Assembly (NCBI GenBank): GCA_029339195.1
Contig: JAPTJF010000202.1
Coordinates: 39,273 to 103,272 of the forward strand
Reading direction: 5' to 3'
DNA: 64,000 nt
Source: Micractinium sp. NFX-FRZ
Lineage: Eukaryota; Chlorophyta; Trebouxiophyceae; Chlorellales; Chlorellaceae
Below the pieces are notes generated by a model. The model ran no database searches, was not told the origin of the DNA, and was given only the letters and a program-made list of their open reading frames with translations. A program made the translations under genes and the position numbers. Below, in pieces: positions 13,022-58,431 of this stretch. Numbering within the stretch: the first letter of the stretch is position 1; each line of letters starts with the position of its first letter.

Positions 13022-15041
13022 TCACAAGGGCGTGCCTGTGCGGTACACATACTGGTCGTACAGCTGCCCCGCGGAACCCACCACGGCCGCAGCACCGCAC
13101 GCTGGCACGCCTGCCGCATCCGCTGCGGTCGCATAAGCAGCCAGCCACGCCTGGATGGAGGGCAGGTCTGCCACCGCACTGCTGAAGGTGCCAAGCGCGG
13201 CCAGGGCTACAGGAGCGGGGCAGGAGAAGGAGGGGCATGTTGAGGCATGCGCCGGCACTGCGGGCATCACCACCCCACTTTCTTATGATTGCTGCTTACA
13301 AGTCTCCAACCCAAAGCACGGCAAGTCAGCGCTCGAAACCTCAGCGGTGTAGCACGGCTGCTGCTTTGCAAGGGTGCGCCACCCAACGTAATCTGCCAAG
13401 GCCCGACCGCCTCACACTCACATGCCAAGGCCCGACCGCCTCGCACTCATATGCCAAGGCCCGACCGCCTCGCACTCACATGCGTTTGTGGCGGCGTCGG
13501 CATTGGGGCACTCTGCCTGGTCCAGCGCCGTCACTGCCACCTCTGCCGCCGCGCCGCCCTCCTGCACGGCGTCCCGGATTTGCTGGCCCGCAGCCGGTGT
13601 ATCACTGCAGATTAGCTGCTCCAGCTGGCCGACTGCTGCGGGGTCGGGCTGGGCTGTGCCGTTGGCGCCTGCAGCGCGGTGGGGCAGCATGGGAGCGGGG
13701 ACGAATGAGCCGGGCAGATTGGAGGGGCTGGAGCGCACGCTGTGCATGCTGTGTTCGTGAGCTGGCGGGCGATACCTCTGCGTGCACCCTTTGGGGAATC
13801 AGCCAGGCATGCTTGCCCGGTTCCCATGGCCAGCCTCCACCCCAGCCACCCACACACCTGCCCGGCAACCCACTGCCGCACACCCAAGCAGCACTCAACC
13901 CACGCACCATACTTGGTTGCGAATCGCACCCACTCCTGCCTGGACGGATCGTACTGGTAGCACTGCACGGTTTCGCCTCCCTGGGCGGTACGGATGCTCG
14001 TCAGGATGTGGGCGTCGGCAGGGAAGGCTGCATGCAAGGGAGGGGACTCGACCGTCGCGGGCTGGGAAGCAGGCAGTTGGGTGGTCATGTGGCGGGCAAG
14101 GCGGTGTCTAGCTGGCTGGCAACCAGGGAGGGAGGCAGGCATCAGGCCCCAGCAGGCAGCAGCCGTGCTTGCCTGGGGTGGGTGGCATGGGAGGGGCAGG
14201 CACTGAGGTGGGGGGTGCCTCGGGTGCTGGGGCGCCAGCAAGGGGGGCAGGAGCTGGGGTGGGGGCTGCCTCGGGCGCTGGGGCTCCGCCAAGGGGGGCA
14301 GGCACTGGGGCAAGAGGGGCAGGGGCTGGGGTAGGGGGTACTTCGGAGGCCGGGACGCCAAAGAGGGGCCCAAAAGGGGCCTCGCCCGTGGGAGCAAATG
14401 CGACTGGAACAGGGGCAGGCGGAGGGGGCATACCGACTGGGATTGGAGGCGGGACTTCCACGGCAGGGCCCGGGGGAGGCATGGCAGCCAGAGGTGGCGG
14501 AGCAGCAGGGGAAGGCAGGGGTGACACCCCGTCCACTACGGCAGGCTGGGCCGGAGGCGGGGCCGGGACAGGCGGGGGTGGCGGGGAGGTTGGCATCAAT
14601 GCGGCTTCAGGCACGACTGGGGCGGGTGTGGGGGGAGGCGGGGCGGCCGGGAGAGGAATGGTCAGCGGCGAGGGTGGCGGGGCGGGTGGGGTTGGTGGCA
14701 GCAGTACCGGGGGAGCTGGTTGGGCAAGCACCTCTGGAGTGAGGAGGCTCACGGCTGGACCCGAGGGAGCAGCTCCTGGCGCAGGCGGGGAGGGTATCTG
14801 GGCCAACCTCCTGCGAAGGGCATCGCTCTGCGCAGGGTGGTGGGGCAGCGATGCGCGGTGCGGTGTTCTGAGGTGTCACTGGAATTCCAGGGGTGGATTT
14901 GCTGCTCTTGCAGGTAACTTGCAGCATGGCATGCGCAGCGGCGCAGCTGAGCCGGCAGCAGGCAGCCAGGAGGGACGGTGTGCCGGCGGCAGACGCCGCA
15001 GTGCCGCAGCGAGGCGGCAACATCTTACCTCGTCGCCCAAA

Positions 15042-15074
<33 letters not shown>

Positions 15075-15136
15075 GTTGCACCGAGGAGGAAGGCGCAGAG
15101 CCAGCCGGCCCGCACCGCCTGGCTGTTCCGAGGCAT
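13022..15136 (-). CDS. Array member P: secreted 4-Cys protein with very long Pro-rich linker
   Basis: Five exons (15136-15029, 14827-14173, 14027-13908, 13668-13480, 13206-13022) give 418 residues, the longest of the array. The signal peptide has a run of ten alanines written by a GCA/GCT repeat. The linker exon opens with RRRLAQIP and continues for about 218 residues of Pro/Ala with imperfect repeats around APAPEA and PAPLAG, likely hydroxyproline-rich if secreted. Module 1 has VQCYQYDP and ends KYG. Module 2 has LICSD and AEC. Module 3 has VPACGAAAV and ends YRTGTPL, so His of the usual HTG is Arg here. Intron 2 has a GC donor (CCAG|GCAAGC), required by the frame. Intron 4 contains a repeated donor. 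The function is unknown; an extracellular matrix role is inferred. Confidence 0.82.
13395..13481 (-). repeat. 29-bp x 3 tandem repeat carrying copies of a 5' splice site
   Basis: Three 29-bp units begin at 13395, 13424 and 13453 on the plus strand. Read on the coding strand, the first unit begins at the exon 4 donor of member P (GCAT|GTGAGTGCGAGG). The next copy has mutated GT to AT, and the last keeps a usable GTGAGT. The exon 4/intron 4 junction has thus been multiplied inside the intron. Confidence 0.9.
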
Positions 15137-15603: not shown

Positions 15604-17399
15604 TCACACTGGGTTGCCGGTGTGGATCAGGTACTGCTGCACCAGCTGGCTCCCTCCCCCCCTCACAACAGCTATGCTGGCGCACAGCGGGAGGCCGATG
15701 GCGTCGGCAGCTGCCACTAGGCCGGAGAACCAGGCCTGGACGGCAGGCAGGTCCTCTGGGGCGCCGCTGTTGACGAGGTCAATGGCCGCTGAATCTGCAT
15801 GCCACACAAACCACATGAAGACGTCATTCACAGCAAAGGCGCGGTGATGATGGCGAGCGTCCTTTTGGGCAGCACACCCATCTACCCCTAGTCGTGGCAG
15901 CTTACAGCCACGACTGCAGTCTGACCAGTACTCAAGGCACACGCTTCTGGCCGGCCCAGCGCAGCCCACCAACCCGCCCGCACCCTCACATGCGTCGCCA
16001 GTGGCCTCCTTGTCGTCACACTGATCCTTCGCTTCCACAATCAGAACATGCACAGCCACTTGCGCCCGGCTGCCTCCCGCCTGAACGTCTGCAGCCAGCC
16101 GCTTGCCAGCCGCCTTTGCATCGCTGCACACCAAGTGCACTAGCTCGCTGACCGCTGCTGCATCTGGCTTGACGGCCCCGGTGGCGTCTGCAGGGCTTGA
16201 GGCCCGTGTGGGGTCCAGGTGAGAGAGCAAATGAGGCGGGGAGGGGCCAATGAGCACTGGCCCATGATCGAGTGCTGGAGAATGCAGTGGGGCAGATGCG
16301 CACCCACACCCGGCACGCCCACCCCTCCAGAGGGCTCACCATACGCCGGTGACCTCTGCAGCTGCCAGTCCAGCTTCTCGGGCACATATTCCTTGCACCG
16401 CACCACCAGCCCAGTGTCGTACTGAACAGTAGTCGTCACAGCTGCATCGGGGGGCAGCTCTCCGACTGCAAGAAGGCAAAGGGGAGGCGAAGGGGCACGG
16501 CGGCGTGGGTTCTACCTGCCTAGGCGCCTGCATGCCCGCACCCCTCCACTTGCCGGCTCCCCAGCTGCGCAAGCTGCCACCTGCGAGAGGGAGGTGGCTG
16601 GGCTGGCAGCAGCCGTCTGGCTTGGCTGTGGGTCTCACCTGGGGCAAAGCTAGGCGGCGGGAGAGGCGTTCCTGCTGCTGTCTCCACTCCAGGGGGAGGT
16701 GGCAGCACTTGAGGGGGCGGGGGAGCTTCGACTGGAGGGGGCTCTGCCTCCGGTGGTGAGGGAAGGGTGGCAGGAGCTGGGGGGCCGCCGCTGTCAGCCG
16801 GGAGTGGAGGGGTCACAGTGGGTGACAATGGAGGCGATGGGTGGTGCACCAGAGGAGGGAGAAGCTCAATGGTCGAGGGTAGAGGAACAGGCGCAGGGAG
16901 TGTGGGTGTGTCAGGAGCGGGAAGAGGAGCAGTGGGGACAGGAGGGGTGGGGACTGAAGGGGCAGGAGCGGGAGTGGCCACAGGTGGGCCGGGCGAAATG
17001 ACGGTGGCTGTGGCAGTTGTGACAGCGGTCACGCTGGCAGCGGTCGTGGCGGCATGGTCGGGCGGCGGCAGGAGAGGCACTTGTGCCAGCCGGCGTGGCC
17101 CGAGGGTCTGCGGGGCAGCAGCGCACGTAGCAGGCTCGGAGGAGGACAACAACACGGGTGCATTCCCCTTGCAACGCATGCTGCAACGCATGCACCATCG
17201 TTCCACAGGCAGCCGGGCAGGGCGGCAGCGGAAGGCCGGCGGCGCGGCGGCACGGCAGCAAGGCTGGAGAGCGGCGGCAGCGGGGCAGGGCGGTAGCAAT
17301 GTTTCGCACCTTGGGCACCACTCCGTCTGCTGCTGGACCCGCTGCTGCCAGACTCAGCACAATGCAAAGGAAGGCCAGCTCTTGCAGCCACCGAGTCAT
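15604..17399 (-). CDS. Array member O: secreted 4-Cys protein, Pro-rich linker
   Basis: Five exons (17399-17310, 17107-16639, 16465-16340, 16187-15990, 15794-15604) give 357 residues. The first 30 residues are a signal peptide with a Leu/Ala core. The linker opens with the shared RRLAQVP, then an AVTTATATVISPG segment also found in member N, then about 120 residues of Pro-rich repeats. Module 1 has VVRCKEYVPEKLDW and AYG. Module 2 has LVCSD and DQC. Module 3 has LPLCASIAV and ends IHTGNPV. All introns are GT-AG with phases 0,1,1,1; the last splits a Tyr codon (T|AT). Its closest relative is N, its neighbour. Secreted by prediction; function unknown. Confidence 0.83.
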
Positions 17400-17647: not shown

Positions 17648-19621
17648 TCAGATGGATCTGCCGGTGTGGATCTGGTACTGCTCCACCAGCTGGCTCCCCC
17701 CTCCCCTGACAATCGCTAGGCTGGCGCAGACCGGGGTCCCAACTCGGTCGGCGGCGGCCACCAGGCTCGAAAACCAGGCGTAGGAAGCCGGCAGGTCCTT
17801 TGGGCTTGGTGAAATGCTGACGTCGGCTGCAGCCGAATCTGCACATGACTCGTGTGGTCCAAGGGAAGGAGCAGCCGCGGCACGAGTTGAGAGGGGCAGG
17901 GACGCCCCAACTTACTGCAGTGCTGCTAGACGTGCAGTGTGTCAAGCTTGCATGCAGGCGGGCAGGCAGGCGGGCAGGCAGGCAGGGAACCAACACCAAT
18001 CAATCAAGCACATGCACATCCCTCCCAGCCCACGCCGCCAGCTCACATGCGGTGCCCACCGCATCGGCACACCGAGAGTCCGCTTCTTGTAGCAGCGCAT
18101 ACACCGCCACCTCGGCCTGGCTGCCCCCCGCTTGGACGTCTGAGGCAATCTGCTTGCCTGCCGCCTCAGGGTCGCTGCACACTTGCTCTGCCAGCACACT
18201 GACGGCAGCCGGGTCCGGCTTGGCTGAGCCAGAGGCATCTGCGCAGGGAGAAGGAGGGGAAGGTGGGGTGCAGGCGGGTGGTGCTCTGGGGGACACTGAG
18301 GAATGGCAGGGTGGTCCGCCAGCGGCAGGCTGCAGCATCTGTAGGTCCCTGGCTAAGCTCTGGTGCAGGCGCATGGGTGAGGGTCTCTGCAAGCCGGTTC
18401 AAAGCCGGCCCACTCTGGATCCGTATGTTAGGCTCGGGGTGCACAGCCCAACCTGAGCAGTCCCCAGCTGCAACCCCACAGGTCTGCCCAGCTTTCCCGA
18501 GATGCGCACACAGGCTCGCCCTCGACAGCTGCCCAGTCTGGGCCACAGGGGGGCCTCCAGCTTGCCACAATGTATGAATGCAACCCTCGGGAGCAGGCTG
18601 CAGCTCACCATACGACTGTGAGCTCCGCACCTCCCAGTCCAGCTTCACGGGCACGTACTCCTTGCAGCTCACAACCAGCCCGGGGTCAAACCGCAGGCTG
18701 GCAGTCACCGCTGCATCGGAAGGCAGGTCTGCAGGAGCAGCAGGGAGGGGAGGCAGGGAGAGGGTGGCAGGGTGGGCCAGGGAGTCGGTACAAAGCTCAC
18801 AACCGTGCAGAACGGTGGCAGGCATTTGGAGGCACCAGGAGGCAGCTCCTCGCCTGAGACAAGGGTGGGGGAAGGCGAGGAGGCACGCTATCGAGAGTGC
18901 AAGTGAACCATGGCTCAAGGAGGCACAGGTCTGCCCGTGGCGCCTGCCCTGCCCCCCGCTGCATGCTGCTGCGCAACAGACGCTCGCTCCACCCATCCCA
19001 TTACACGGAAGGCAACTGCTGGCTGCAATGGCCAACACAGATTGCACACCTGTAGGGAACTCAGGCGTGGGGGCATCTGAGGACAATGTTTGGGGAGGTG
19101 ACGATGCTGCGTCCGAAGGGGGCGCCTTCTGGCTGTCGGCTTCCGCCGGCGACGGCGGGGGACTGTCGCGAGGGGTCCTGGATGGGCGGAGCGGGGGCAG
19201 CAGCTCCACCACACCGGCTGGGGCAGCGGGTGAGATCACTGTGTCGGTGGGTGTGGTGACGGCTGTAACACCTGGGGGTGCGGGCACTTGCGCCAGTCGC
19301 CGTACGCGGGCCTGCGTGGGCGGTGCAGTGGGGGCATGGCCAGTGCACTGGGCTCTTTGCCAAGGGTATGCACCGCCAAACTGTGCCCTGGCAACAGGCA
19401 AGAAGCCCTGGCTGGCTGGGTAAAGCTGCATGCGTCTGCAGCCAGCTCTCTAGACGGCGGCACCCCCGCAGCGGCGGCACTCGCTACCGGCGGCACACAC
19501 AGTGCGCCGGCAGGCTCACCTTGGGTCCCTCGCCCTTGGCAGCTGGCCCTGCTGCTGCCATTGCTGCTGCCAAGGTCAGCGCAATGCACGACCAGGCGAG
19601 CGCTTGCAGTGCCCGAGCCAT
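17648..19621 (-). CDS. Array member N: secreted 4-Cys protein, Pro/Ser linker
   Basis: Five exons (19621-19520, 19311-19050, 18728-18609, 18238-18047, 17838-17648) give 288 residues. The signal peptide is followed by a linker with RVRRLAQVPAPP and AVTTPTDTVISP, matching member O. Module 1 has VVSCKEYVPVKLDW, nearly identical to O. Module 2 has QVCSD and SRC with AGGSQAEVAVYAL. Module 3 has TPVCASLAIV, a GGGSQLVEQYQ stretch and the end IHTGRSI. Phases are 0,1,1,1. The linker is less than half the length of that in O although the modules are close, so linker length changes fastest. Confidence 0.83.
18047..18238 (-). other. Representative module 2 exon of the array family (member N)
   Basis: Module 2 is mostly one exon with phase 1 at both ends. 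It runs from an acidic/Pro start (D-A-x-G-x-x-x-P) through VCSDPEAAGKQIASDVQAGG to the third cysteine and a Tyr codon split by the next intron. In members A, B, D and H-L the same module is cut into two or three exons at fixed points, before the third cysteine or after the second. Confidence 0.7.
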
Positions 19622-19959: not shown

Positions 19960-21672
19960 TCAGAGCTCCGTGCCAGTGTGGTATTGAAACTGGTCAAGGC
20001 GGCTGCCTGATCCGTCCACTACTGCAATCGTGATGCACAGGGGGACGCCGGCCGCATTGCCCGCTGCAACCATTGACTGGAAGAATGCTTTGGTGGCCTC
20101 CAAGTCCGCAGTGCGCCCGCTGTTGACGTCATTCACCGCCGCGAGATCTACAGAGCGGGTTGTGAGAGGTTCAACCGCCTTGTTGGCGACAGGGGCAATC
20201 AAATGGGCCGCAACGGAGGCACGCGAGCTGGGAACTGCAGCGGGCAGGGAGTGGGCAGGCATGGGGCAGGCATGTCCCCCAGGCAGCGCAGCCCTCCCAC
20301 ACTCACAGGCCTCACTGCCGCACACACAGGCATCCGCGGCACTCACAGGCAGTTTGTGTGGCTTTGGCGAATGGGCACTTTGGTCCAGCAAACAGCGCTG
20401 CCACTGCCACCTCGGCCTGCGAGCCTCCCCCTTGGATGGCGCTCTTGATCTGCTGCCCTGCAGCCTCTGCATCGCTGCAGATCTTCTCGCCCAGCGATGC
20501 CACCGCCCCGGCATCCGGCTTGGTGGTGCCGGCGGCATCTGCAGAAGAGCAGAGGGGAGACAGGAGGGGGAGAAGGTGAGGTGAAGGCTCTGGGCAAGTC
20601 TGCCGCTCAGGTCCGCCCCGCTCGTGTGAATGGGGTCGACTTGGGGATTCTGCGCCAAACCGCCGTGTTCCCTGGCGCGGCCGCTCAGGGCACATGCTGC
20701 AGCCAGCACCCCCATTGCTTGTGCCCCCCTTGCGCTGCCCCAAGCACCCACTGCCATCCCAGCCCTCACACCCAGGCGCCTCTCTGCTCACCGTACTGTA
20801 TGGAGGCCTCCTTGAAATCTTTGATGGATGAATCGTAGTCCTTGCACTTGACCACAATGTCGCCAATCTGAATCACCGTCTTCACGCTGGCATCAGAGGG
20901 GTACCCGCCTGCGGCGAAAACACACCCAGTGGGACGCCCGGCAAGGCAGGCAGGGGCAGGCAACAGTGAGCTTGCTGCAGGCCACATGGGGGTCATGGGC
21001 GGGGTGAGCAGCGCTGCCGGCTGGTGGCTGTTTGAACACACCTGGTGCGGGCGGGGAGGGCGAAGGGCTGGGCGTGGGCGGGCTGGAGCTTGGGCTTGGA
21101 CTGGGAGAGGATGGGGCTGGGCTGGGGCTGGGGCTGGGCGGTATGCCAGGCACCGGCGCTCCTGCCGGCACGACCACGACTGCGTGGAGGGAGACCGGGG
21201 CAGCAAGCTCGGGGGTAAGGGTGGAGCAGGCAACCCTGCCCGCAAGCAGGAAAAGCCAAGCAAGTCTGCTTGCCGGCAGATGAGGCCTGACTGCTCACAA
21301 CACAGGCTGCTCGCCTGTTGTTGTGGTGGTGGTAATGACCGCGGCGCCTGGCGGCACCGGAGGCGTGCCCGGAGGCAGCGGCACCGGCGACTGGGCAAGC
21401 CTGCGGCCGGCCCTCCAGTCCTGCAGGGTGGCGTAAGATATTGTTGCACAACAGAAGCTTTGCGCGAGAAATCAGTGGATACAGGGAGGCGCAGCACGAT
21501 GGGCGGCGGGCCGGGGGCAGGCGGCTGCCAGCGGCAGCGGCAGCGGCAGCGGCAGCGGCAGCAAGGTGCCTCCTCGCCTTCTTCCTACCTCGTAACCAGA
21601 AATCGCTGATGCTGCTGCCGCCGCTCCCAGGAGAAGCAGGCAGGCGGACGCCAAAGTCAGGGATAGCGCCAT
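19960..21672 (-). CDS. Array member M: secreted 4-Cys protein, Ser-Pro linker
   Basis: Six exons (21672-21589, 21420-21315, 21179-21042, 20908-20792, 20538-20347, 20147-19960) give 274 residues. The signal peptide is rich in Leu/Ala. The linker lies in two exons: the first with RRLAQSPVPLPPG and a TTTTTT run, the second a SerPro repeat (PSPSPSP type). Module 1 has VVKCKDYDSSIKDF instead of the usual DW and ends QYGE. Module 2 has ICSD and PKC. Module 3 has VPLCITIAVVDGSGSRL and ends YHTGTEL. Intron 2 needs a GC donor (ACAG|GCGAGC) to keep frame. Intron 1 contains a GGCAGC repeat (about 21533-21560). Single-exon module 2 and 3 place it with N, O and P. Confidence 0.83.
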
Positions 21673-22307: not shown

Positions 22308-25300
22308 TCAGCCAGTGTGGTACAGGCGCTCCTCAATGACAGTGTAGTCACTCTCATCAACCAGAGCAACGGTGGCACATACCTGTGGGGGCAGGGCACA
22401 AGGCAGGAAGCAATGCAGGCGGTCGGAAGTTGGTTGCCTGCCAAAACACATTCTGAACCGTCACGTGCCTCCCTTTTCTGGGCAACTGTTCCTGTCCATT
22501 GTTTTTTGTGCAATCCAAACCGGAGTGCCCCCGGAAGCGCTCCCTCTGTCTCGCCCTCCCACCCTCCCTCCCTCCCCGGGCCGAGGCATGGCCTCACCGG
22601 GATACCGACGCGATCTGCAGCCGCCACGAAGTTGGCCATCCAAGACTGGGTGCCCTCCCAGTCAGCTGGGTCGCCTGAACTTGGAAGGGGTGAGTAACAG
22701 TGCCGCGGTAAGCGACTGCAGCCCCGCCGTTGCCACCAGTTTCCCCCCATGTGTGGAGGCAAGCGGACAGATGATGTGCACAGCAGCGGTGTGGCGGACA
22801 GGGTGAGCTGCCTGGCTGCAGGCTGTGACAGAAGCTGTGTGGAGGAGCTCTGCTGTCACAGAGGCACCGCTGCTGCATGCTAGTGGCCATCCCAGAGGCA
22901 GTGCCGCTTCTCACCCGTGTTCACAGCATCTCCCGGGTGGCGCATTGCACAGGGGGAGAGGAGCCCATCAAGTGTGTGTATCAGTAGACATGAAAAGGCT
23001 GGGCCTCCCAGAGAGTGCAGAGCAGTCAGCCGCACCCACTGTAGGTGTACAGCAAGCCGCGCCAACCGAAGCCCCAACCCTGGCCAGGCATGACCCTGCA
23101 CCCTGAGCTACAGGCAGGCCTCCTGCCCGGCTCACCGATGGCATACTGCCGACAGCCGGTCCGTGAAGCAGCAAAAGGGAAGGTTGGGGCAGTGAGTGGG
23201 CGAGTGCGCACTTCTGAGCAAGCAGGCACCAGCTGCTGGTCTGCATGCCAGCCCTCGTGCAGGCGGAGCACACACTGGCTCCCACAAAATGCAGCGCCGT
23301 GTGCCACACGGCTAGCAGGCATCACCCTCTCAACCTTCCACCCAACACCACGGCCAGTGCTGACTCAGCCGGGCGCTGTCAGACAGCCCCTCGCCCTAGC
23401 TCTCCACCTGGTAAGTGTCGCTGGTTGCATATTCGTCCGGGCAATCCTGCAGGGGATGGCCGGCAGGCGGCATGGTAGGTGCAGAGCACAACAGGGGGCA
23501 GACAGACTTCCCCTGCTGCGCCTGCTGTGCCTGCTGTGCTTCTCCTACAGGAGCACAACAGCAGGAGGGGAGGCGGGCAGGCACGCTGGCGGCATCCGAC
23601 AGATGCACACACATGCTCACTTGACCATGCCAAAACCTCGTGGCAGCAACTCGTCCCCACTTGCTGCCCCACGCACCGCATTGAAGAGGGCATACACCCA
23701 CGCCTCGGCCTGCTGCCCCCCTGCCTCGACTGCTTGCACCAACTTCTTGCCGGCAGCCCTGGGGCTGTCACACATCTGTGAGGCAATATCGGATGCCTGC
23801 CCGACCTCGGGCACCTCGCTGCCTTTGGCGGCTGCAGGAGGATTGGGGAGCACCGGGGAGAGAAAGGGGGCGGCCCCCATGAGGGGCAGTGCAGGCAAGG
23901 CATAGCAGGCACTGGCAGACAGTGGGGCAAGCAGTGCACGCTAGTTGTATCAGGGATGCTTACTAGTACTAGCTCCTGCGGGTGTCAGCAAGTGGGCCGG
24001 CGCAAGCCATGCTGCCCTGCCGCAGCAGCGCCACCCCAGGGTCCTGTCCCTCCCTCCACCACCTCTTAATCTCTCTAATGCGCCCCTCCCCCCGCCCCTG
24101 TGCTCACCATACTCCTGGCTGATATCTGTGGCCCAGCCGGTGGCATCCTCCCACACGTCACAGGTCACCGAACCTTCACCCGTGCTGCAGGGGGCAGGGG
24201 GCAGGGGTGGCGGTGAGCAACGCACGAGCGGCAGCGGTGTGCAGTGCCAGACAAATGGGCAGAGCGGCAGGCAGCACGGCCAACGTGTGAAGCGCTGGGA
24301 GGGCACACACAGGCGTCCTCCCCAGAGTGCCAGCGCCCTAGCAAGCAGCCGCCTTGCCTGATGGTGGTGTACACGCCTGCAGTTGAGGGCAGGCTACCTG
24401 CAGAGGGGCCACAATATGGGGGGACAGTTGGTTGGTGACTTACCTTGGAGCCTGGCGGAAGAGCTCGACAGGAGCAAAGAGCAGAGCACCGCCGCTAGCA
24501 GATCCCCCACCACCAGCGGTGGCACATGAACAACCGTTTAGCAGCTGGCAGGGAGGCGTGCAGCCTGTGCCGACCTGCAGCCTCAGCTGCGGAGGGCGAG
24601 GGTGAGGGCTGCGTTTGGGCAGGGGGCGAGGGCGCCGGCTGCGGGCTGGCAGGGGGTGAGAGAGGTGCCTCGGCGCCGGGAGGGAGTGTGGGCAGTGGCT
24701 TCACATCAAAAGAAGGCACCGGCGACGTGGTGTTGGGGGCTGTGCCTGTGCCCGTGACGGCTGCAGGGCCACACGCGCAGGGATGGGGGGCGGGCAAGCA
24801 GGCAGGCTAAGTCCCAGTTCAGGCAAGCGGCAGCGGCGACATCTTGGCCTGAGGGGGCTTCCCGCTGCATGCATGCACACAAGCGATACGCGCGAAAGGA
24901 ATATCAAGCAATACAACAGCTTTAGAGACCAAGGACCCATGGCGGTCCCAGGAGCGCAGGCGTAGCGGCGGCGGCGGCAGCAGCGGCGGGCGGCAGCTGA
25001 GGGAGGTGGGCAGGCACCCACTCTGGAACTTGCGGACGGAGCTCCCGTTGCCCGAGTTGTGCTTCTTGGATTGCAGGGGAGCGGCAGGGAAAGTCACGAG
25101 GCGGGTTTGGGCCTTGAAGGCACACGCGGCCGCACCCACGGACCGCGGGCAAGAGCAAGTCGGAACGCTCCCTGTTGCTGCCCTGCACTACCCGGGGGCC
25201 TGCTGCAGTTTCGGGCAAGCTGTCGGCTCAAGTGAAGTGGACTTACCGGCTTGACCCCCGCCGCTGCCTGGGCCAGCAGCAGGCAGCCGAGCGTGAGCAC

Positions 25301-25315
25301 GAGAGTGAGCTTCAT
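22308..25315 (-). CDS. Array member L: secreted 4-Cys protein with two microexons
   Basis: Eleven exons close in frame: 25315-25247, 25064-25022, 24760-24575, 24397-24358, 24184-24108, 23831-23677, 23446-23408, 23145-23136, 22929-22915, 22674-22598 and 22382-22308. They give 261 residues. After the signal peptide comes the J-K-L type basic segment KHNSGNGSSVRKFQ, then a Pro-rich linker. Module 1 is split (LPSTAGVYTTIR | ...VTCDVWED...YG). Module 2 has QMCDSP and AEAWVYALFNA, then DCPDEYATSDTYQ. Module 3 begins with a 10-nt exon (YAI-G) and a 15-nt exon (DAVNT-G), then DPADW, PVCATVALVD and the end YHTG. The intron after 24358 has a GC donor (AG|GCAAGG). The exact frame closure supports both microexons. 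Confidence 0.8.
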
Positions 25316-25992: not shown

Positions 25993-26665
25993 TCAGCCGG
26001 TGTGGTACTGGGTCTGCTCGATCACAGTGTAGTCGGCCTCGTCCACGAGCGCCACGGTGGCACAGATGGGGATGCCCACGGCATCGGCAGCCTTTGCCAA
26101 GTTCTCAAACCATGCCTTGGTGGCCGCCAGGTCCTCGGGGTCGCCTGGAGGGAGGGAGATGAGCGGGCACGGGGCATGGGAGGTGAGCAGGCACGGGGCA
26201 CGCAGGGTGAAATCAAACAGGGGGCGGGTGAAGCCGGGAGGCGGGGGAGACGAGCTGAGGGTGAAGCGGGCCAAGCCTCAGCAGAGGCAGCGGCGGCAAG
26301 TTCATGTGCGGCAAGGCAAGCGAGGCGGATGGCAACTCAGTCAGCCAGAGTGAGCGCTGCCCTAACTCACCGGTGTTCACAGCGTCTGTCGAAAGGGGTT
26401 GTGCATGGGAGCAACGGGGAAGGGAAGGGAATGAGGTCAGGCCAGCTCTTGGCAGCAAGCACCGCAAGTCAACCAGCTCCTGGCTGCCTGGCCATGCAAG
26501 GCATGCTGCTAAGGCAGAGGCAAAGTGGGCTGCAGGCACCGTGCCCGCTCGGCTTACCAATGGCGTACTGGTAGGTGTCGCTGGGGGCGTACGAGTCGGG
26601 GCAGTCCTGCAGAGGGGAGGGGGAATGAAGCAAGAGGTGCCTTAGGCAAAGGCAGATGCCTACCA

Positions 26666-26700
<35 letters not shown>

Positions 26701-39840: not shown

Positions 39841-40172
39841 CTACCTGCCGGTGTGGATGAACTCGGTGTGCAGCACGCTCCTGGTGGAGGGGTCGAAGAC
39901 TGCCAGCGTGGCGCAGGCAGGGACACCCAGGGCATCGTAGGCTTGCACCAGAGCATGGTAGAACCTGGAGCCGGGGGCCGGGGGAGGTGAAAGGGGTTCT
40001 TTGATACGATGGCCAGGCAGGACGGTGCGGCGAGGCAGGGGAGCAGAGTACCTTGCACGGCATGGCCTTCATCCCGGGCCCTCACTGCACACTGCTGTGT
40101 ACGAGGCCTCAGGGCAGCTGCTGGAGATGCATGCAACAGCAGCAGCGACAGAGCGAGCCTGAACGCCGCCAT
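39841..40172 (-). pseudogene. Array member G: truncated copy with signal exon and module 3 only
   Basis: A good signal peptide starts at 40172 (LALSLLLLHASPAAA). Only 160 bp later comes a module 3 segment (about 39967-39841) reading FYHALVQAYDALGVPACATL...IHTG-Arg-stop. Linker, module 1 and module 2 are missing. No donor I can find joins the two parts in frame: the strong donor after 40172 (CAAG|GTACTC) leaves phase 1, while the acceptor needs phase 2. The module 3 intron of E and F, between GIP and ACAS, is absent here. Most likely a deletion remnant. A minimal expressed protein with an unusual splice cannot be excluded. Confidence 0.7.
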
Positions 40173-47300: not shown

Positions 47301-47427
47301 GCGGCCTCCTGGCTGCTGCAACAGCAGTGCAACACCCTCGCACCTTCGCACCCAGCTCGTCGTTGCCTGCTGCAGCCGCCGCCAGCAGCAGGAGCGCGAC
47401 GGTGGTCAGCGCACGCCTCGGTTCCAT
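44345..47427 (-). CDS. Array member E: secreted 4-Cys protein, Pro-rich repeated linker
   Basis: Eight exons (47427-47344, 47136-46881, 46593-46553, 46242-46167, 45714-45511, 45120-45060, 44721-44676, 44428-44345) give 283 residues. The linker starts with VTRRALLQRPSSIGQGG and contains three copies of an SPPPPSPSGGQ-type unit. Module 1 has the extra E/F intron and VGELLTNCRELDPIAVDW. Module 2 has LICSDQKAAAKRVL and GQC, with a longer tail (GGSLITKT) before the split Tyr codon. Module 3 has EYIISALISGAPDELPDARQ, WFQNLIAAYESLGIP and ACVSLAVWDPEAQEVLY, ending HTGTAQ. A 27-nt potential cassette exon lies in the intron after module 2. Phases match F throughout. Confidence 0.83.
45433..45459 (-). 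other. Possible 27-nt cassette (poison) exon in member E
   Basis: Downstream of the true module 2 donor (45511) the intron contains a second copy of the exon end (GGGGGCAG...GGTAAGACCT|GTGAGT), preceded by its own acceptor with a branch-like CTAAC (CTAACTGCAG). Inclusion would create TGA at once, because the upstream exon ends in T and this exon starts with GA. It would therefore truncate the protein before module 3. Confidence 0.5.
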
Positions 47428-47972: not shown

Positions 47973-50031
47973 TCACGGCATGGCTGCCTGAACTTGAGGC
48001 TCGGGGCTGGAAGCGACTGCGCCCAGCGCCTCTGCTCCCGTGTGAAGGTCTTGCGAGAAGAGCACTGCCTTGGCAGGCGGGTTCCACACCGCCACTGTCG
48101 CGCAGGTCTGCGGGAGTAGGGGCCAGCGGCAGGTCAGAAGGATGAAGCTTTTGGGGGGCAGTTGTGGGAGGAAGCAACCAGTACCAAGTTGGCAGGATGG
48201 TACCGGGGTATGGTACTGGGGCTAAATTCACAGTAGAGCCTGTGGTCGGCGACCTCTGGGCCCGCTAGCATTTCTGCTGTCCCTGGCGCTGGCCAGAAAG
48301 AGCAGTTGCATTACCCACTTGGCAGGCACATGCACCCGAAGCCCATCTCGATTGCACCGCCTTACCGGGATCCCAACGGCGTCTGAGGCAAGCACATAGT
48401 TCTCCAGCCACTGCTTGGCCGCCGGCATGTCCTCGGGCAGGCCAGTGTCCACCACACTTGCAGCCAGCTGGTCTGCACATGGACACGGTTGGAGGCATGA
48501 TATTGTGGTTCACGGTTTGGATGACAAGCACACGGCATGCGGACAGGAAACCAAAGCAGAAAAGAGAGTACAGAGCAAGAGCAGCCCTTCATCCAGCCAT
48601 CAGCCCAGGGCGCCACTCACAAGTGTCGTCCGCAGCGCTCAGGTCGCCTGGGCAGTCCTGCTTTCAGGGAACACGGGGCCGGGGGATATGGGTTGGCAGA
48701 AGTGGCGCCTCCAGGCGGGCCTTCCCACCAATCAAGCCACCCGACCGCCTCGCCGCAACCAATTAGGTGCAATGGGACCCATTGCCGCCCTGGTCCACCT
48801 GCCCAACCCCACCCACACGCCTTCCCAGCCATGCGCCAACGCGCACATACTGCCCCAGCCTGCCCAGCCCTCACATCTGCACACGTAACTGTCCCACCCA
48901 GGCAGCCTCAGCCCCACCTCCGACCCGCTCACCGCATTCATCAGTCCGTACACCGCCACCTGCGCCTCGCTGCCGCCCGCCTCCACAGCACTGAACAGCC
49001 GCTTTGCTGCCGCCTCGTGGTCGCTGCAGATCTGCTGGATGAACTGCACCACCTCCTTCACGCTCGGTGTCTCGGTGCCAGCGGCATCTGCATCACAGGG
49101 TGAGGGTTGTTGCGAGGCAAGGTACACGGCTCACTGGTACATGTTGGAGCTCCTTTTACTACAAGGGGAGATGTGCAGGCACCCCCTACAGCGAGCTGCT
49201 GCACCATTGCGCGGTGCACGACCGCATGTGCTCCACTGCTGTCATCCCCACCGGACGCACTGGCATTCCCTCCCTCCGCAATGCAAGTTTTGACAGAGTG
49301 CGTCTTACCGTACTTGACGGTGCTTCGCTGCCAGTCCCCAGTCTGCGGGTCAAACTCGAGGCACATGGCTGGCTCGTCTGTCCCCACACTGACGTAGGTC
49401 ACAAGCTGTGCTGTGGCGGGGAACTGTGAGGCAGTGCCTGCAAGCGAGTAGTGGCAGAGGGCAGGCAGGCAGTGTGAGTTACCAGCGAGAGGCAGGGCCG
49501 GGCCCAGGAGGCAGGGACGGTGGGCTGGGAAAGGTGCCCGCTGGCCTCCCTTGTCACAAGTGTGTCTGATGGGCTCCCTGCATGCCTCTGCATGCCTGAG
49601 GTGTGGCCCTGAAACATGCATTGGTAAAAGCAATTCCCCACCTGACTGTGCCGCTTCAGCTGCAGGGGGAGGCGGTTTGGAGTCAGCGGTGGTGTCTGCT
49701 TGCAGAAGTCCACGTGCAGGTGGGAGGCTGTGCCTTGCTGAGGGTGAGCTGCTCACCTGCAGCGGGCACATATGTTTGATAAGTGAGAGGAGAGGAAAAT
49801 GAACCGGGGCAATAGGGAGAACAGGCGGTGGCGTGCAGGGAAGCTGAGGAGGCACGCCCGGCATTAGCGAAGGCTCCCTGGCAGGCCGCCTGGCTGGCGG
49901 CGGCGGCGGCGGCTGCACCACGGCGAGCATATGGCCGCGCTCACTTGGCGCAGGACGCGGCCTGATGCAGACACAACCGCGGCTAGCAGCAGGCAGGCCA
50001 CAAAGCCCGCTGGTTTGCGGGTGCGGAGCAT
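47973..50031 (-). CDS. Array member D: secreted 4-Cys protein with C-terminal extension
   Basis: Seven exons (50031-49945, 49756-49642, 49437-49309, 49087-48933, 48657-48621, 48472-48366, 48107-47973) give 254 residues. Signal peptide FVACLLLAAVVSASG; short linker with LPPARGLLQADTT. Module 1 has FPATAQLVTYV, AMCLEFDPQTGDW and KYG. Module 2 has QICSDHEAAAKRLF and AGGSEAQVAVYGLMNA, with Cys3 in a 37-nt exon (DCPGDLSAADDT). Module 3 has QLAASVVDTGLPEDMPAAKQW, GIP|TCATVAVWNPPAKAVLF and HTG. Unlike all others it continues for about 18 residues after HTG (AEALGAVASSPEP and onward) before the stop. The start was chosen as the ATG of the hydrophobic exon. Confidence 0.82.
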
Positions 50032-50846: not shown

Positions 50847-52861
50847 CTACTCCTGCTCCGTGCCGGTGTGCAGGTCTTGGATTGTGAGCACGGTGGTGGT
50901 TGCCGGATCATACACAGCCACAGTGGCACAGGCCGGGAGGCCCAGCTGGTCGGCCGCTGCCACGAAGTTTGCGAGCCAGCTGCATCGCACGATGGAGGGC
51001 ATGCAGCAGCAGCATGGTGAGTGTGCTGCCGCCCTGGCATACCAATGGGCTGGTGGGGTAGTGGACAGGCACCGGGGTGAAGAGGAAGCTGAGCAGGCAC
51101 CCCTCGCCCTGCAAGTTGCCTCTGCACCCACACAACGCTCCACCCGTGCTGCTGGTCACCTGGTGACTGAATCCAGGTCTGCTGGGTCCCCAGAGTTCAG
51201 AGCGGACAGAGTGTAGTCGTCTGAAGCATGGGAGGGGACGGCAGGTGTGGGCAGCAAGGACAAGTTGAAGGGTCGAGGCTCATGAAGCGGGCCTGGGCTG
51301 GGGCACCGTAGGGCTGGGTGCGCCGCACTGCAACCACTCTTCCAGGCGCGGCAGGGGCAGAGAGCTCTTCTGCCCACGCCCCTCCTGCCCAAGCAGCTTG
51401 CCCCCTCATGCATACACCTTTGAGTCGCCCCCATCCTGTGCACAGCACAGGGCACAGCAAATGCCTGCCCAGCACCACTCACAGGTCTGGCTGGATGCGT
51501 CGTTGTCGCTGCAGTCAGCAGTCATGAGCGCCATGACTGCCACCTGTGCCTCCTCGCCTCCCGCCTTCACCCCTTGCAGCAGCTGCTTGGCAGCTGCCTT
51601 CTGGTCGGAGCAGATGAGGCTGCTCAACTGGCTGACATCTGAGGTGGGCGGCTTGGTGTTGCCAGTGGCATCTGCATTGGGGCAGGGCCAGGCGAGTGAT
51701 GGCGTTGAATAGATGGGTTTCAGTGGGTCGAGCAGGAAGGCGAACCAAGCAGCAAGTGCGAGGCGCAACAGGGCACGTGCATCATGGGGCGGCCGGCAAC
51801 ACAGCATGCTGACATGCCAGGCCTCCCAGGACCCCAACACGATCATGCAACTGCTCATTGCCCTGTTGTTCACATGCCCTCATCTCTCTGCCCCTGCTGC
51901 TCCTTGCTGCCACATGTCCCCCTCCCTCCCTCCCTCCCTCCCCCTCACCATACTTGAGGCCAGAGACGGTCCAGCTCTGTGCGATGGGGTCGTAGTAGGA
52001 GCAGGTGGCAAACAGCTGGTCAGAAATGCTCAGGTGCGTGACCAGCACCGAGCCCTTTGGGAACTCCTGGGTGCCTGCAGCGGGCCGGGGTTGGGCAGGG
52101 AGGCGGCGCACAGGGGGTGCAGTCTCAGTCGAGAGTGTGTGGCCAGAGTGTGTGGGCAGCGGGACGGGCGAGAGGTGCTGGGTGTCAAGTGCCTGCTCGC
52201 CTCCCCGGCCCGGTGCGCCTCGCTCTTGCTTGCACGGCTCTGCTTGGCCATGGCACAACCATCGGCAGTCCTTACTGTGCCCCTCGGCCATATGGCGGGT
52301 GCCGGGCCCTGCCCTAGCACTGCCTGAGCCCAGCACAGGCATGTGCAGAAGTGCAGCCCACCTGGCTTGGGCGCTGGGCTGGTGGCGGGCGAGGGGCTGA
52401 CGGCTGGGGACGGGCTCAGGGCAGGGGAGGGGCTGGCAGCTGGCACCACAGCAGCCGGGGAGGGGCTGGCAGCTGGCACCACAGCAGCCGGGGAGGGGGA
52501 GGGGCTGGGAGGCGGAGAGGGGGAGGGGCCAGGGCTGTCGCCGGCCGGCACTGTTTTGCCCGCTAGGTCTGAGGGCCTGGCCAGCAGCCTGCGCCCCCCC
52601 TGTGCAGCCGATGTGGCGGCGTTGTTACGGGCGCGGGCACCCTACAACACACCAAGAAATGGAGGGCAGGCAAGCGGATGGGTTGGGGGCAGCATGACCC
52701 TTGAGCTGCCGCCGCCCACCCGCCGCCAGTTGGGTGTTAACATCAACGCCTCTGGCAAGCACTTTGGCTGGGGAAGCGCCTACCTCGCTCATGAGCCTGC
52801 TTGCCACGCACTGCGTGGCCAGCAGCAGCAGGGAAACGTATACGGCGTGCGTGCGGGTCAT
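50847..52861 (-). CDS. Array member C: secreted 4-Cys protein, Ala/Ser-Pro repeat linker
   Basis: Six exons (52861-52784, 52641-52362, 52074-51949, 51671-51483, 51220-51160, 50979-50847) give 288 residues. Signal peptide VSLLLLATQCVAS. The 93-residue linker has GGRRLLARPSDLAGK followed by two copies of a PAAVVPAASPSP unit and SPSP repeats. Module 1 has FPKGSVLVTHL, LFATCSYYDPIAQSW and KYG. Module 2 in one exon has LICSDQKAAAKQLL and ADC. Module 3 has DYTLSALNSGDPADLD, WLANFVAAADQLGLPACATVAVYDP and end HTGTEQE. The intron after module 1 begins with GGGA repeats right behind the donor. Confidence 0.83.
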
Positions 52862-53398: not shown

Positions 53399-55628
53399 TC
53401 ACACCCTGCTACCAGTGTGGTACTGCGTAAGGAGCAAGGGTGAGAGGCGGGGCAGGCCAGGGTGGGTTATTTTGAGCGCCTCGCTGGCAGGGGGCAGCCT
53501 CGCTGCCTGCACCGTCCCACAGTAGCAGGCATGTTGGAAGCACGGGTTCCCTGCCACAAGGCTGCCCCACCTGCTCCTGCGAGTAGATCTCAGAGCCATC
53601 TGCCGACACAAGCGCCAGCGAGGCGCACACGGGCACGCCAACGGCATCGGCTGCAGTGACAAAGTTCTTCATCCACGCCCTCATGGCGTCCAAGTCCGCA
53701 GGGTCCCCGGTGTTCACAGCATCAGCTGCATACTGCAGGCAGGGGGGCGGCGAAACACAGCTTGAGGCAGGAGCGCACGCGGAGAAACGTAATCGTTCGT
53801 CTCGCTTAAGGCGGTCGAGCAACTGGCTGCAGTAGAGCAACTGGCAGCGGCAGAGCACCCGGCTGCAGAGCAACTGGAAGCAGCAGAGCAACTGGGGGCA
53901 GCACAGCAACTGGGTGCTGTCCCCCCTCAGCTGCCCCTCACCGAGTAGGCATCACTGGCATCCGAGGTGCAGTCGGCCTGGTCGTACGCGGCAGCCGCCA
54001 CCTGGGCAGCACTGCCGCCCTGCCGGATGCTCGTCAGCAGCTGCTTGCCTGCAGGGGAAGGAGGCGGCATGGCACCAGCCCCGGAGGGGAGCCTGGTAAA
54101 GAGGCACAACCAAATGCGAATCCAGATTATGCCCCGAACGAAAACGGCAGAATGTCTTGCTGTGTTCCATGCACTGCCCCTGCCGCCCGCATGCACATGC
54201 GGCGGCACCAGCAGCCCCCCGCATGGACCGTGCCCCGCAGCACACTGTGCAACCAATGAACTCCAGCATGGGCCTCTCCAGCCCATGTACCTCCGGCTCT
54301 TGGGTCAGAGCAGATGAGGTCGACCAGCTTCTTCACCTCCTCTGCACTAGGCTTCGAAGTACCCTTCGCATCTGCTCATGAGGGTGGCGTGGTTGGGGAC
54401 CGTCACGCTGGCCTGCTCGGCGTGTTGCTACGCCAGGAATGCAGCAGCAGAGCAGGCAGGGGTTGCGCCAGGAAGGGCGGCTCTTCCTCCATGCACCCAT
54501 GCATAGCGCACACACAGTCCGGTGGGGTGCACCCACACAAGCAAGGCTTCCCTTGCTGGAGTGTGGCCCCACACTGTGTTCTGCTTCAGGGATTGTTTGC
54601 ATCTCTGGGCCCTCCCCACCCCTGGAGTCCCCTCACCAGGTCGGGCTGAGCTCCCCTCGCTCAGTGGCAAAACCGCTCGGTGGCCGAGGGCACAGCCTGC
54701 CAAAGTCACCCCTCCTCTTGCACCCCTCCCCCCCCGCATAAATCACGGCCCCTCGTCCCCACACCCTGCACCATCCTCTCCCTCACCATATCGGGTTGAG
54801 GTTGGACTCCAGTCGCTGGAGGCTGTGTCCCACTCTGAGCACGTTGTCACGATGCCACCAGCAGACAGGTAGGTTGATAGGCGGGCACCGCTGGGCACGG
54901 GGCCCGCTGCACAGCAGCCAGGCGGACACAGGCCGAGCGGTGGGAAATGGATAAAGAGGGTGAATCAGCCAGACAAACGTGGCCCAGCAAGAGGGATGTC
55001 AAGACGGGGTGTCTCAGGCGGGGTGCCTGCTCGTCTTCCGACAAGCCAGAAAGAATCCCCACTGCCTGCTGGCATGAGAAGCCCTCCCCCCGCATTGCTT
55101 GCTTGCTTACGTGCGGGCCCAGGTGAGGGAGGCGTGGGAGAGGTTGTGGAGGGAGAGGGTCTGGGCGAGGTGGGGGATGGGCTAGTGGTCGGTGGTGAGC
55201 TGGGCGGGGCAGCAGGGCGCGGTGGTGAGCTGGGAGGGGAGGCAGGGCGCGGTGGTGAGCTGGGTGATGGCGAGCTGGGCGGAGCACCGCCCTGACCGAT
55301 GCTGGTGGGGCGGTCCAGCAGTGCACGGCCATGGGTGCTCTGTGAGGGAGGCATCAAAGGGAGGCTCTGGGAACAAGGCAAGAGCATGTGGCAGGGACCA
55401 TGTCACAGGAAGCGGCTCCAGCAGCCAAGTGCCGCGCCCAAAGTATGGGTGGGTGTGCGGGCGGGCAGGCGGGCGGCGCTGGCAGGGGGGACTGCTTCTA
55501 GGCGGCCTCTGAGGTCGTTCCCAGCCTCCTTTCCATACCTGTGCTACCTCGGCAACAGCAGAGCTCGCCAGCAGCAGCAGGCAGACAAGTGCGGGTGCAG
55601 GCAGCGAGGCGCGTTGGCAGCGACCCAT
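53399..55628 (-). CDS. Array member B: secreted 4-Cys protein, Pro/Ser linker
   Basis: Seven exons (55628-55539, 55339-55111, 54906-54787, 54371-54291, 54048-53942, 53732-53571, 53422-53399) give 270 residues. The linker starts STHGRALLDRPTSIGQGG and holds Pro/Ser repeats (SPPRPA and similar). Module 1 has RLSTYLSAGGIVTTCSEWD, DW and RYG. Module 2 is split after the second cysteine (LICSDPRAG | GKQLLTSIRQGGS), with ADC following. Module 3 has YAADAVNTGDPADLD, VPVCASLALVSADGSEIYSQEQ and a final 24-nt exon coding YHTGSRV. B and A are clearly the most recent pair by exon order and motif identity; B has lost the intron that A keeps before WLQ. Confidence 0.83.
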
Positions 55629-56252
55629 GGTTCCGAGGCTGCGGTGACCTAGTTGACAAGTGTGCAGGGCAGGGTGGCTTGTGAAAAGATGTCGAAAGTC
55701 GCGCCCGAGGCTGCACCCGCAAGTGACGGGACGGAAGGGCAGCAGGCTGGGCAGCTGCCACCTGACGCTGTGACGCTGCCGCAGACAGGTGTGCCGCCAT
55801 GGCCTGTCTACCTCTCACAAGTTCGCCCCACTGTGATTTGATTTTAACAGAGAAGGTGCATCAGAAGTGTAAACGTGGAGGTTGAAGCGCATAGCTGGAT
55901 GCGCGGCCAGGTGAGGACTTCGGGTAATGAAAGGCTGAGGGGCTGGGTCTGGTGACAACGGCAGGTGCTGCAGGGCATCTGAACCGCAGCCATGCATCTG
56001 GAGTGGCGGCGGCTCCCTCACACCTGACTGCCTGAGTGGAGCTGCAGGTGGGGCAGGAGAAGAGGAGGGAGGCATGGCATGGTAAGCGACCGAGCCTTGA
56101 GGCCACCCCCACTCTGCACGGCCGCTTGCAACTTGCCTTCAAGGGATGGCGGCTGCGCCTGTGCATCACCCCTCGCATGTCGGCTTCACAGTCATGGGCA
56201 GCCAGGCGGCACTTCCTTCCTCACTGAATGAAACGATCTCATGCACCCTGGT
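55629..56252. other. Spacer between members A and B
   Basis: About 620 bp that should contain the last exon (YHTG) of A, as in B. I could not find that exon. The rest is 3' flank of A and promoter of B. Confidence 0.4.
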
Positions 56253-58431
56253 TTAACACCAACCTGCTTGCCCCACCTGCTCCTGCGAGTACACCTGTGA
56301 CCCATCCTGCGACACCAGCGCCAGCGAGGCGCACACGGGCACACCCACGGAGTCCGCCGCGCTCACATAGCTCTGCAGCCACCTGCAGTGGACACGGGAG
56401 AGCACGATTAAGAGATGCATTCTATTTATGTGGGGCGGAGCGAAGGTGAGGTGAGCATGCAAGCGACTACAAGGTTTGCCGCCAAGCCCGCCTCTAGCCA
56501 CCACCCGTCGACTCGGCACCACCACACCACACCACCAAGCTCACTTCCGCATTGCATCCAAATCTGCCGGGTCGCCGGTGTTCACCGCATCTGCCGCATA
56601 CTGCCAAGTTGGAGGAGGGAGGCAGACATGCCACAGCCAGTGAGCCAGAAGGGAGGCTTGCTTGAGGCCGTTCTAGCTAGGCCTGGCTGCCAGTCCCAAG
56701 CGCTGGCAGCCGTCTGCACACACAGAAGCAGGCTGCACCGCCAGGCACCCCTGGCTGAGAAAATCGCAACCCACACCAATTGATGTCTTGGATCCCACTG
56801 CAAGCACAGCACTCCACCTCCACCCACAGTGCACACACCACGGCAGCGCAGTAGCTAGCACACACCACGGCAGCGCAGTAGCTTGCACACACCACGGCAG
56901 CACAGTGGCTTCCCCTCACCGAGTATGCCTTGCTGGCCTGTGAGGTACACTTGGCTTCGTCATAGGCGGCCGCCGCCACCTGGGCAGCGCTGCCGCCCTG
57001 CTGGACTCCCTGCAGCATCTGCTTGCCTGCAGGCGCCATAATCATAAAACAAGGCGCCGCGCACTGCTCAGAGGGCCGCAGGCAGGCTTGGGTAGAAAGT
57101 GCAGGTAGCTGGTAGAAAGCAGGTGGCAAGTGGCGGGTGACTGGTAGCAGGCAGGCAGCGCGGCACCTTGTGGCGGGCAGAAAGGCACGTGGTCAGGCGG
57201 CATGACCCCAGATGGACACGGCCCCCTTGCTGCGGTGATATGCCCTAACCTCCTCAGCGCACATGGCATGCCCCAATGCTTGCTGCCCAATGCACGCAGT
57301 TCGCCCCACGTACCCCCGGCTCTTGGGTCTGAGCAGATGAGGTCGACCAGCTTCTGCACCTCCCCGGCACTAGGCTCCGAGCCACCCTTGGCGTCTGCAT
57401 GCAGGGCGCCGGCACACAAGCGCAGCATCAGGGTACTGGTGGAAGCAGGGGCACAGCCAGCTGTCCAGTGCAGCCGGCCGCAGATTCTAGCTGGGGCAGC
57501 CTGCTGAGCCTGCTGAGCCTGCTGAGCACCCTTTCACAGGCCCTCCCTTTCTTCTGAAGCGCGCCCGCCCGCGTCCCTCGCTCTTTACTTATCGGCCTCA
57601 CCATACTTGGTCGGGGTTGCGCTCCAGTCCTTGCGGCTGGTATCCCACTCGTAGCAGGTGGCCACGATGCCGCCCGCAGACAGGTAGGTGGAGAGGCGTG
57701 CATCGCTAGGCAGGGGTCCGGCTGCACATCAGCGGCCAAAGGTCAGGCAGTCGGGCGGGGGGTGAGAGAGCGGCGGAAGGCAGCAGCAGATGAAGGGGCA
57801 CACAGAGGAGGTGCATCATCCAACCAGCATCAGCCAGCTTCTCTCCATCCCAGTACTCCTGCTGCGGTGAGAGGCAGGTGGGGTGCCTCCTCCACTTCCT
57901 GCCACCCTGTGCTGGTGAACGGCAGTGCCTGAGGGCGTGCCCAGACGCCTCCCCCAACACTTGCTCTCACGTGCAGGCCCAGGTGAGGTTGGAGGGGATT
58001 GGGGAGGGCTGGGGGATGGGGGTAGAGCGGTGGGGGAGGGGCTGGGCACCGCCGGTGGGGAGCTGGGCGGGGCAGAGCTGGGGGCAGGGGAGCTGGGGGG
58101 CGCGCCGCCCTGGACTATGCTCAGGCCTTGCATCAGTGCCCTCTCATGGCTTCGGCGGGAACCCTGAAAAGCCTTGACAAGCCATGGAATTTGTCAACAA
58201 AGAGCAGGGTGGAGGAATTCCAAGGCAACGGTGGTCGGCCGGTTACCGCGGCGGGCGGACGGGGCGGGGGGCGCCGGGCAAGGGTGCTTCCTGCTGTGTT
58301 CAGGGCTGCATTCGACGCCTTCCTCGGCTTGCTTTCCGCACCTGTGCCACCTCGGCAGCTGCAGGATTCGCCAGCACCAGCAAGCAAGCAAGTGTGAGCG
58401 CAGTGAGCGCGCAGCTCTGGGAGCGACCCAT
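56253..58431 (-). CDS. Array member A: secreted 4-Cys protein, terminal exon not found
   Basis: Exons 58431-58342, 58163-57971, 57721-57602, 57394-57314, 57026-56920, 56600-56545 and 56382-56277 encode 251 residues in frame. Signal peptide LTLACLLVLANPAAA; linker with HERALMQGLSIVQGG and Pro/Ser repeats. Module 1 has VATCYEWD, DW and KYG; module 2 has LICSDPRAG | GKQMLQGVQQGG and AKC; module 3 has YAADAVNTGDPADLD and VPVCASLALVSQDGSQVYSQEQ. In B a short exon YHTG follows. Here I find no such exon: either the donor after 56277 is read through to a stop at 56253 (as drawn), or it is spliced to an acceptor that gives TGA at once (56223-56221). A may lack the conserved C-terminus or be decaying. 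Confidence 0.7.

Follow-up and report, generated by a model that had tools for sequence, protein, structure and literature searches.

What do the genes of a 45-kb array in the green alga Micractinium sp. NFX-FRZ encode, when they resemble one another and no named family? We analyzed a 64,000-nt stretch of contig JAPTJF010000202.1 (the window; positions below count from its first letter), in which an earlier note had described sixteen same-orientation loci of an unrecognized secreted protein family. The array is real and its outer coordinates agree exactly: the stop codon of g1 ends at 13022, and the ATG of g16 starts at 58431. Its genes lie on the minus strand, which that note did not state. 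Fifteen loci yield complete gene models; the sixteenth, g10, holds only a signal-peptide-like exon and a last exon. The products are most likely cell-wall or cell-surface proteins.

g1: 13022..15136, minus strand, 5 exons, 409 aa; Pro-rich linker of 208 aa
g2: 15604..17399, minus strand, 5 exons, 357 aa; signal exon 17399-17310, Pro-rich exon starting at 17107, A 16466-16340, B 16187-15990, C 15794-15607
g3: 17648..19621, minus strand, 5 exons, 288 aa
g4: 19960..21672, minus strand, 7 exons, 297 aa; linker exons uncertain
g5: 22308..25315, minus strand, 11 exons, 269 aa; microexons 23145-23136 (10 nt) and 22929-22915 (15 nt)
g6: 25993..28529, minus strand, 8 exons, 193 aa; microexon 26385-26371 (15 nt); linker poorly modelled
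g7: 29502..32611, minus strand, 10 exons, 204 aa; microexons 30310-30301 (10 nt) and 30118-30104 (15 nt); linker poorly modelled
g8: 33060..35322, minus strand, 8 exons, 241 aa
g9: 35992..38880, minus strand, 8 exons, 258 aa; (SP)n linker
g10: 39841..40172, minus strand, short copy; signal-peptide-like exon (ATG 40172) and last exon 39964-39841 only
g11: 40655..43569, minus strand, 8 exons, 227 aa
g12: 44345..47427, minus strand, 8 exons, 259 aa
g13: 47973..50031, minus strand, 7 exons, 229 aa; linker poorly modelled
g14: 50847..52861, minus strand, 6 exons, 274 aa; looser criterion used for the signal exon
g15: 53399..55628, minus strand, 7 exons, 279 aa; last exon 53422-53399
g16: 56018..58431, minus strand, 8 exons, 240 aa

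Iterated HMMs run over the six-frame ORFs of the window returned 14 rows for module A, 18 for module B (these represent 15 gene loci, with introns dividing the module at three of them), and 24 for module C. Of the module C rows, 23 were on the minus strand, including a weak one at 50552-50496 (E 0.051); the only plus-strand row (E 0.11) was discarded. Taken together, the rows of the three modules define 16 gene loci, every one on the minus strand. An HMM of the whole domain gave 54 matches at E ≤ 0.01 in the window, all on the minus strand, with none on the plus strand, in any of five dinucleotide shuffles, or in the reversed window. Since this HMM was trained on these same copies, the controls, rather than the matches, are the real test. 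Splice-aware models closed for all 15 full copies, in line with the earlier count of 15 closing frames, and gave proteins of 193-409 aa; they contain 5-11 exons, not the 5-12 first reported. GC content by codon position was 0.65/0.50/0.77, versus 0.64 in introns.

The predicted proteins open with a signal-peptide-like first exon, a hydrophobic stretch after the ATG called by hydrophobicity count and by eye, which supports the proposal of a shared signal peptide in 15/15 full copies and also in g10. The Pro-rich linker ascribed to all loci was recovered in 12 of the 15 models, where it spans 34-208 aa with 24-45% Pro, but not in g6, g7, and g13 (6, 19, and 10 modelled residues); because the scoring used to choose linker exons favors Pro-rich composition, these exons are the least certain part of the models. 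With a putative signal peptide in all 15 and a Pro-rich linker plus folded domain in 12, the proteins have the predicted make-up of chimeric hydroxyproline-rich glycoproteins.

The linker is followed by a C-terminal domain of ~165 aa, composed of modules A, B, and C, that contains exactly four cysteines in each of the 15 array proteins. Thirteen further copies of this domain lie outside the array, elsewhere in the 66.07-Mb assembly, so the family is not limited to the array. In all 28 aligned copies the four cysteine columns and a GGxxA motif are conserved, although for the cysteines the count is biased in this direction, because the family profile guided the fitting of the gene models. A phase-1 intron marks the A/B junction in 15/15 genes and the B/C junction in 10/15. 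Although the three modules described earlier are all present, each carries part of one four-cysteine set, and thus they look like parts of one intron-split domain rather than separate modules.

Neither Pfam nor NCBIfam contained a match at E ≤ 0.001, which agrees with the earlier view that this is no named family. There were only isolated weak matches, to HpaB (the best, E 0.0039, in 1 of 15 array domains), PhageMin_Tail (3/15, best E 0.024), and GarL (E 0.037, 1/10), and all three were set aside. A profile search of a 5.8-billion-protein set, which was not exhaustive, found a single homologue, the hypothetical protein ABPG77_000691 of Micractinium sp. CCAP 211/92 (E 7.9e-48). A second search, with an alignment including ABPG77_000691, returned no match and so missed even that protein; these searches scored only the 7999 and 7996 candidates with the most words in common, and relatives can be missed. 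Scans for short exact peptides, which detect close relatives only, found no relative in prokaryote genomes with ABPG77_000691 or in viral contigs with ABPG77_000691 and one B exon. We found no description of the family in the literature within reach, which included few subscription papers. The family is real and conserved, and apparently without a name.

ABPG77_000691 shows homology across the domain, with 55% identity to g7 along 145 aa, and, by eye, has a signal-peptide-like start, as do the array proteins; it differs in lacking a long Pro-rich linker and has no assigned function. Its record also lacks a conserved stretch (YAI, DAVN) that microexons carry in g5-g7, so the annotation has probably gone wrong at this point. 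Microexons of 10 and 15 nt probably contributed to the family being overlooked by annotators. The AlphaFold model of ABPG77_000691 is partial (mean pLDDT 63.8, pTM 0.47), with a core of three helices followed by a helix and hairpin; module A alone gave a low-confidence hairpin. PDB sequence searches and fold searches with this partial model yielded no convincing relative, and BFVD contained no fold match at E ≤ 0.001.

Two resemblances nevertheless had to be considered. The family profile matched TAL effectors among PDB sequences (best E 9.7e-8, and 3.9e-9 against a designed TALE structure). However, the latter value is summed over six repeats with i-Evalues of 3.1-76 alone, as examined in the best of eight listed chains, and no TALE family appears in the Pfam lists for the 15 array domains and 10 family members. 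We rejected this relation; the match is a look-alike helical pair. The helix-GIPxCATLAVVD-hairpin of module C recalls GlcG/HbpS-like proteins; no such family appears among the Pfam matches at E ≤ 1 for these domains and members, and the fold model available for comparison is too partial to settle the matter.

The reading we favor, with somewhat better than even confidence, is that the array encodes secreted, probably hydroxyproline-glycosylated chimeric Pro-rich proteins whose linker would lodge in the wall while the domain would bind a partner. The signal peptide, the sole content of exon 1, is predicted to direct the protein into the secretory pathway. The linker, rich in Ser/Thr/Ala-Pro, would be hydroxylated and O-glycosylated to form a stiff tether in the wall or extracellular matrix. 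The domain, predicted to consist of a hairpin-like A, three helices in B, and a helix plus beta-hairpin in C, and presumably held by two disulfides between its four cysteines, may face outward and bind, most simply, a wall polysaccharide, an exopolysaccharide, or another matrix protein. A cell-surface or matrix location, as the earlier note suggested, would fit the signal peptide, the linker, and the conserved cysteines.

Pherophorins are secreted, have many paralogues, and carry a Pro-rich linker with a globular domain on each side, whereas the array proteins have a single domain, after the linker. Together with other volvocine hydroxyproline-rich glycoproteins (PMC10762512), they are among the closest known systems. 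The Pfam pherophorin domain was not among the families at E ≤ 1 for the 15 array domains and 10 family members. Green algal nsLTPs (PMC9832785) are small, secreted helical proteins whose cysteine motif has eight cysteines, in contrast to the four in each of the 15 array domains.

The proteins might instead be soluble and freely secreted, binding a nutrient, metal, lipid, or small ligand in the medium, with the linker as a spacer. Besides the signal peptide, two features are consistent with this: 14 of the 15 array domains are net negative, and inspection of the translations by eye revealed no C-terminal membrane or GPI-like tail, so that wall retention would depend on the linker alone and free secretion could occur. 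There is also a precedent, as Chlorella sp. HS2 secretes MAPS, an abundant orphan protein without a conserved domain that is similar to nothing but hypothetical proteins of green algae, one of them from Micractinium sp. CCAP 211/92 (PMC12213679). However, the N-terminal residues printed for MAPS occur in none of the window's six frames, so MAPS, to the extent of those residues, offers no direct homology, and the (SP)n-type linkers of g9, g12, g14, g15, and g16 resemble wall-type modules. We consider this alternative unlikely.

The gene spread through local tandem duplication, with some dispersal. Array neighbors are most alike (mean adjacent distance 0.47 versus 0.59 for all pairs; 0/5000 permutations as low), and the tree groups g2-g3, g5-g7, g11-g12 with C416, and g15-g16; as adjacent paralogues on the same strand, the loci form a tandemly arrayed gene family. 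Large copy number, domain identity that falls to 28% between array paralogues, and widely varying linker lengths could also point to a diversifying recognition or decoy family, in which paralogues show different surfaces to a virus, a symbiosis host, a mate, or self; endosymbionts and virus hosts do occur in Micractinium and Chlorella. Yet in the seven closest paralogue pairs, whole-domain dN/dS was 0.21-0.33, and the 21 per-module values (0.12-0.68) never exceeded 1. The domain is under purifying selection, with no arms-race signature in these pairs. The short-peptide scans of viral contigs, which reach close relatives only, found no relative, and BFVD had no fold match at E ≤ 0.001. The arms race raised by the earlier note is not supported, and we regard a recognition role as decidedly unlikely. 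A bolder version, a long shot, is that an unnamed, Chlorellaceae-only extracellular domain, possibly of a new fold, forms a surface family of at least 28 copies for variable recognition toward viruses, ciliate hosts, or mates, and was hidden by its microexons, which disrupt automatic gene models.

Secreted enzymes of a class not known are likewise improbable. The domain has a conserved W (25/28 copies) and H (23/28), and HpaB and GarL were among the weak matches, but these enzyme matches do not recur among members, and no column holds an invariant residue of catalytic type in the 28 copies, a pattern more in keeping with a binding or structural role than with catalysis. That the array is non-functional, whether decayed repeats or a low-complexity artefact, is hardly credible and already contradicted, since apart from the incomplete g10 all 15 copies yield open models, dN/dS is low in the closest pairs, introns and cysteines are conserved, another genome has an annotated relative, and shuffles yield no matches.

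Virus attachment, symbiosis, and industrial cell breakage are all affected by the walls and surfaces of Chlorella-like algae, and to our knowledge the wall proteins of these algae are little known. A four-cysteine domain that occurs at least 28 times in one genome and has no Pfam family is a concrete candidate, open to testing, for a major family of surface proteins, and its microexons illustrate how annotation can miss such families.

GC content across the window is 0.59-0.72 per 2 kb. The two exons of g10 can be joined in frame through one 128-nt GT-AG intron to encode 67 aa; this copy is either a pseudogene or a mini-gene.

Modules A, B, and C were traced outward from gene 2 in the raw sequence by tblastn and iterated HMMs and were recovered throughout 13-58 kb, with the repeated coding pieces on the minus strand. 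Domain models of g1-g16, numbered from low coordinates, were built with a purpose-written splice-aware aligner; the 15 full domain models contain 62 introns, 60 with GT-AG and two with GC-AG borders, the only types that the aligner permitted. The array proposed in an earlier note held up on this raw-sequence check; complete models of all 15 full copies close (193-409 aa), with 5-11 exons rather than the proposed 5-12. Signal-peptide-like exons were found in 14 copies, in g14 by a looser criterion, and in the short copy g10. In 12 of 15 models, linkers are 34-208 aa long and contain 24-45% Pro, and those of g6, g7, and g13 were modelled at 6, 19, and 10 aa; linker exons, picked by Pro-favouring scores, are the least certain part of the models. 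Every full model has a phase-1 intron at the A/B junction, and 10 of the 15 have one at B/C; other introns are patchy between subgroups. GC3 is 0.77 in the array models, compared to 0.64 in their introns.

Short exons and the short copy are located as follows:
23145-23136 and 22929-22915, minus strand: microexons of g5
26385-26371, minus strand: microexon of g6
30310-30301 and 30118-30104, minus strand: microexons of g7
39841-40172, minus strand: g10, limited to one signal-peptide-like exon plus the last exon

The microexons occupy matching positions and are flanked by AG/GT; the 10-nt exon encodes YAI (g5, g7) and the 15-nt exon DAVNT/S (g5, g6, g7). The stretch that they restore sits inside longer exons in copies such as g2, g15, and g16, and is missing from the record of P0001, a homologue from Micractinium sp. 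CCAP 211/92 (hypothetical protein ABPG77_000691). The two exons of g10, joined across one GT-AG intron (128 nt), give 67 in-frame aa, and g10 is perhaps a mini-gene and not a dead fragment. Its likeness to the domain is confined to the last exon, and its spliced-aligner score was set aside as evidence.

A whole-domain HMM gave 54 minus-strand matches in the window and none on the plus strand, in five dinucleotide shuffles, or in the reversed window. Domain dN/dS was 0.21-0.33 for the seven closest array pairs (0.12-0.68 across their 21 per-module values) and 0.25-0.53 for the other pairs among the 16 listed of 105; the ratios are rough, since dS of the seven closest pairs is 0.67-1.38. We found no positive evidence here for the arms race that had been suggested.

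Four Cys, a GG, and an A three residues on were kept across 28 aligned copies from the array and elsewhere, with W retained in 25, a near-terminal H in 23, and one G in 27; modelling against the family profile favours such conservation, and module A of the copy on contig C84 is doubtful. Within the array, the Cys count is exactly four in every domain. AlphaFold on P0001 together with window exon pieces gave, with good confidence, helices at 86-98, 100-113, 115-127, and 153-172 and a hairpin at 178-185/191-198; module A alone gave a low-confidence hairpin. The three modules noticed earlier are probably not separate units but parts of a single small alpha/beta domain held by disulfide bonds. Family, sequence, and fold searches, the last with a partial model, returned no convincing match, and our literature search found no description of the family. 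This is a new domain family within a familiar architecture.

Because a signal peptide and Pro-rich linker precede a Cys-conserved domain without invariant catalytic-type residues, the best fit, judged from sequence, is a chimeric, Pro-rich protein of the wall or matrix that carries a binding domain. Such a protein is predicted to be secreted; its linker prolines would be hydroxylated, the protein would be placed in the wall, and the domain would bind a partner.

Searching 5.8 billion proteins with three queries returned one homologue (P0001), P0001 again, and none; the search was not exhaustive, since the last query included P0001 as a row yet missed it. The single Micractinium homologue supports lineage restriction but falls short of proof. 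Scans of viral and prokaryotic contigs, able to detect close relatives only, found none.

Spliced-aligner scores of 13 copies outside the array were 186.5-409.9, compared to 90.7-109.4 for 12 random 1.9-kb same-contig pieces. These copies, whose counts are lower bounds, and their clusters are:
Left end of the array's own contig: three copies
Contigs C239, C52, C84, and C416: one copy each
Contig C260: four copies
Contig C155: two copies
C202:1-9999 (L024), 826-3982, same strand: position of the three left-end copies, which are divergent and form a small second cluster at the contig's very start
L029 (C260), about 5042-7495: C260_3 and C260_4, two of the four C260 copies, as tandem family domains behind a single signal-peptide-like start

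The C202 cluster may extend past the contig end, and the C260_3/C260_4 arrangement, modelled in part, suggests a two-domain protein.

A tree of 20 rows, strongly supported on 6 of 17 inner branches, grouped g2-g3, g5-g7, g11-g12 with the C416 copy, and g15-g16. As P0001 clusters with g5-g7 (support 83/85), subgroups may predate the split from its Micractinium. Adjacent genes are more alike than expected (0/5000 permutations; Mantel rho 0.35, 12/5000; 15 genes, g10 omitted). The history of the array is one of ordinary tandem duplication and dispersal.

Left of the array, an ORF at 1834-3060 (plus strand) carries a reverse transcriptase (Pfam RVT_1, E 1.6e-17) together with a PHD finger (E 1.2e-8) and is a retroelement, perhaps LINE-like. 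A 593-aa open frame at 8269-10047 (plus strand), within a 72% GC stretch, had no Pfam match at E<=0.01. Directly upstream of g16 and on its strand lie pieces of delta-aminolevulinic acid dehydratase (62504-61677 and 59805-59329, minus strand; Pfam ALAD, E 2.9e-6 and 2.7e-9), usable as a synteny marker.
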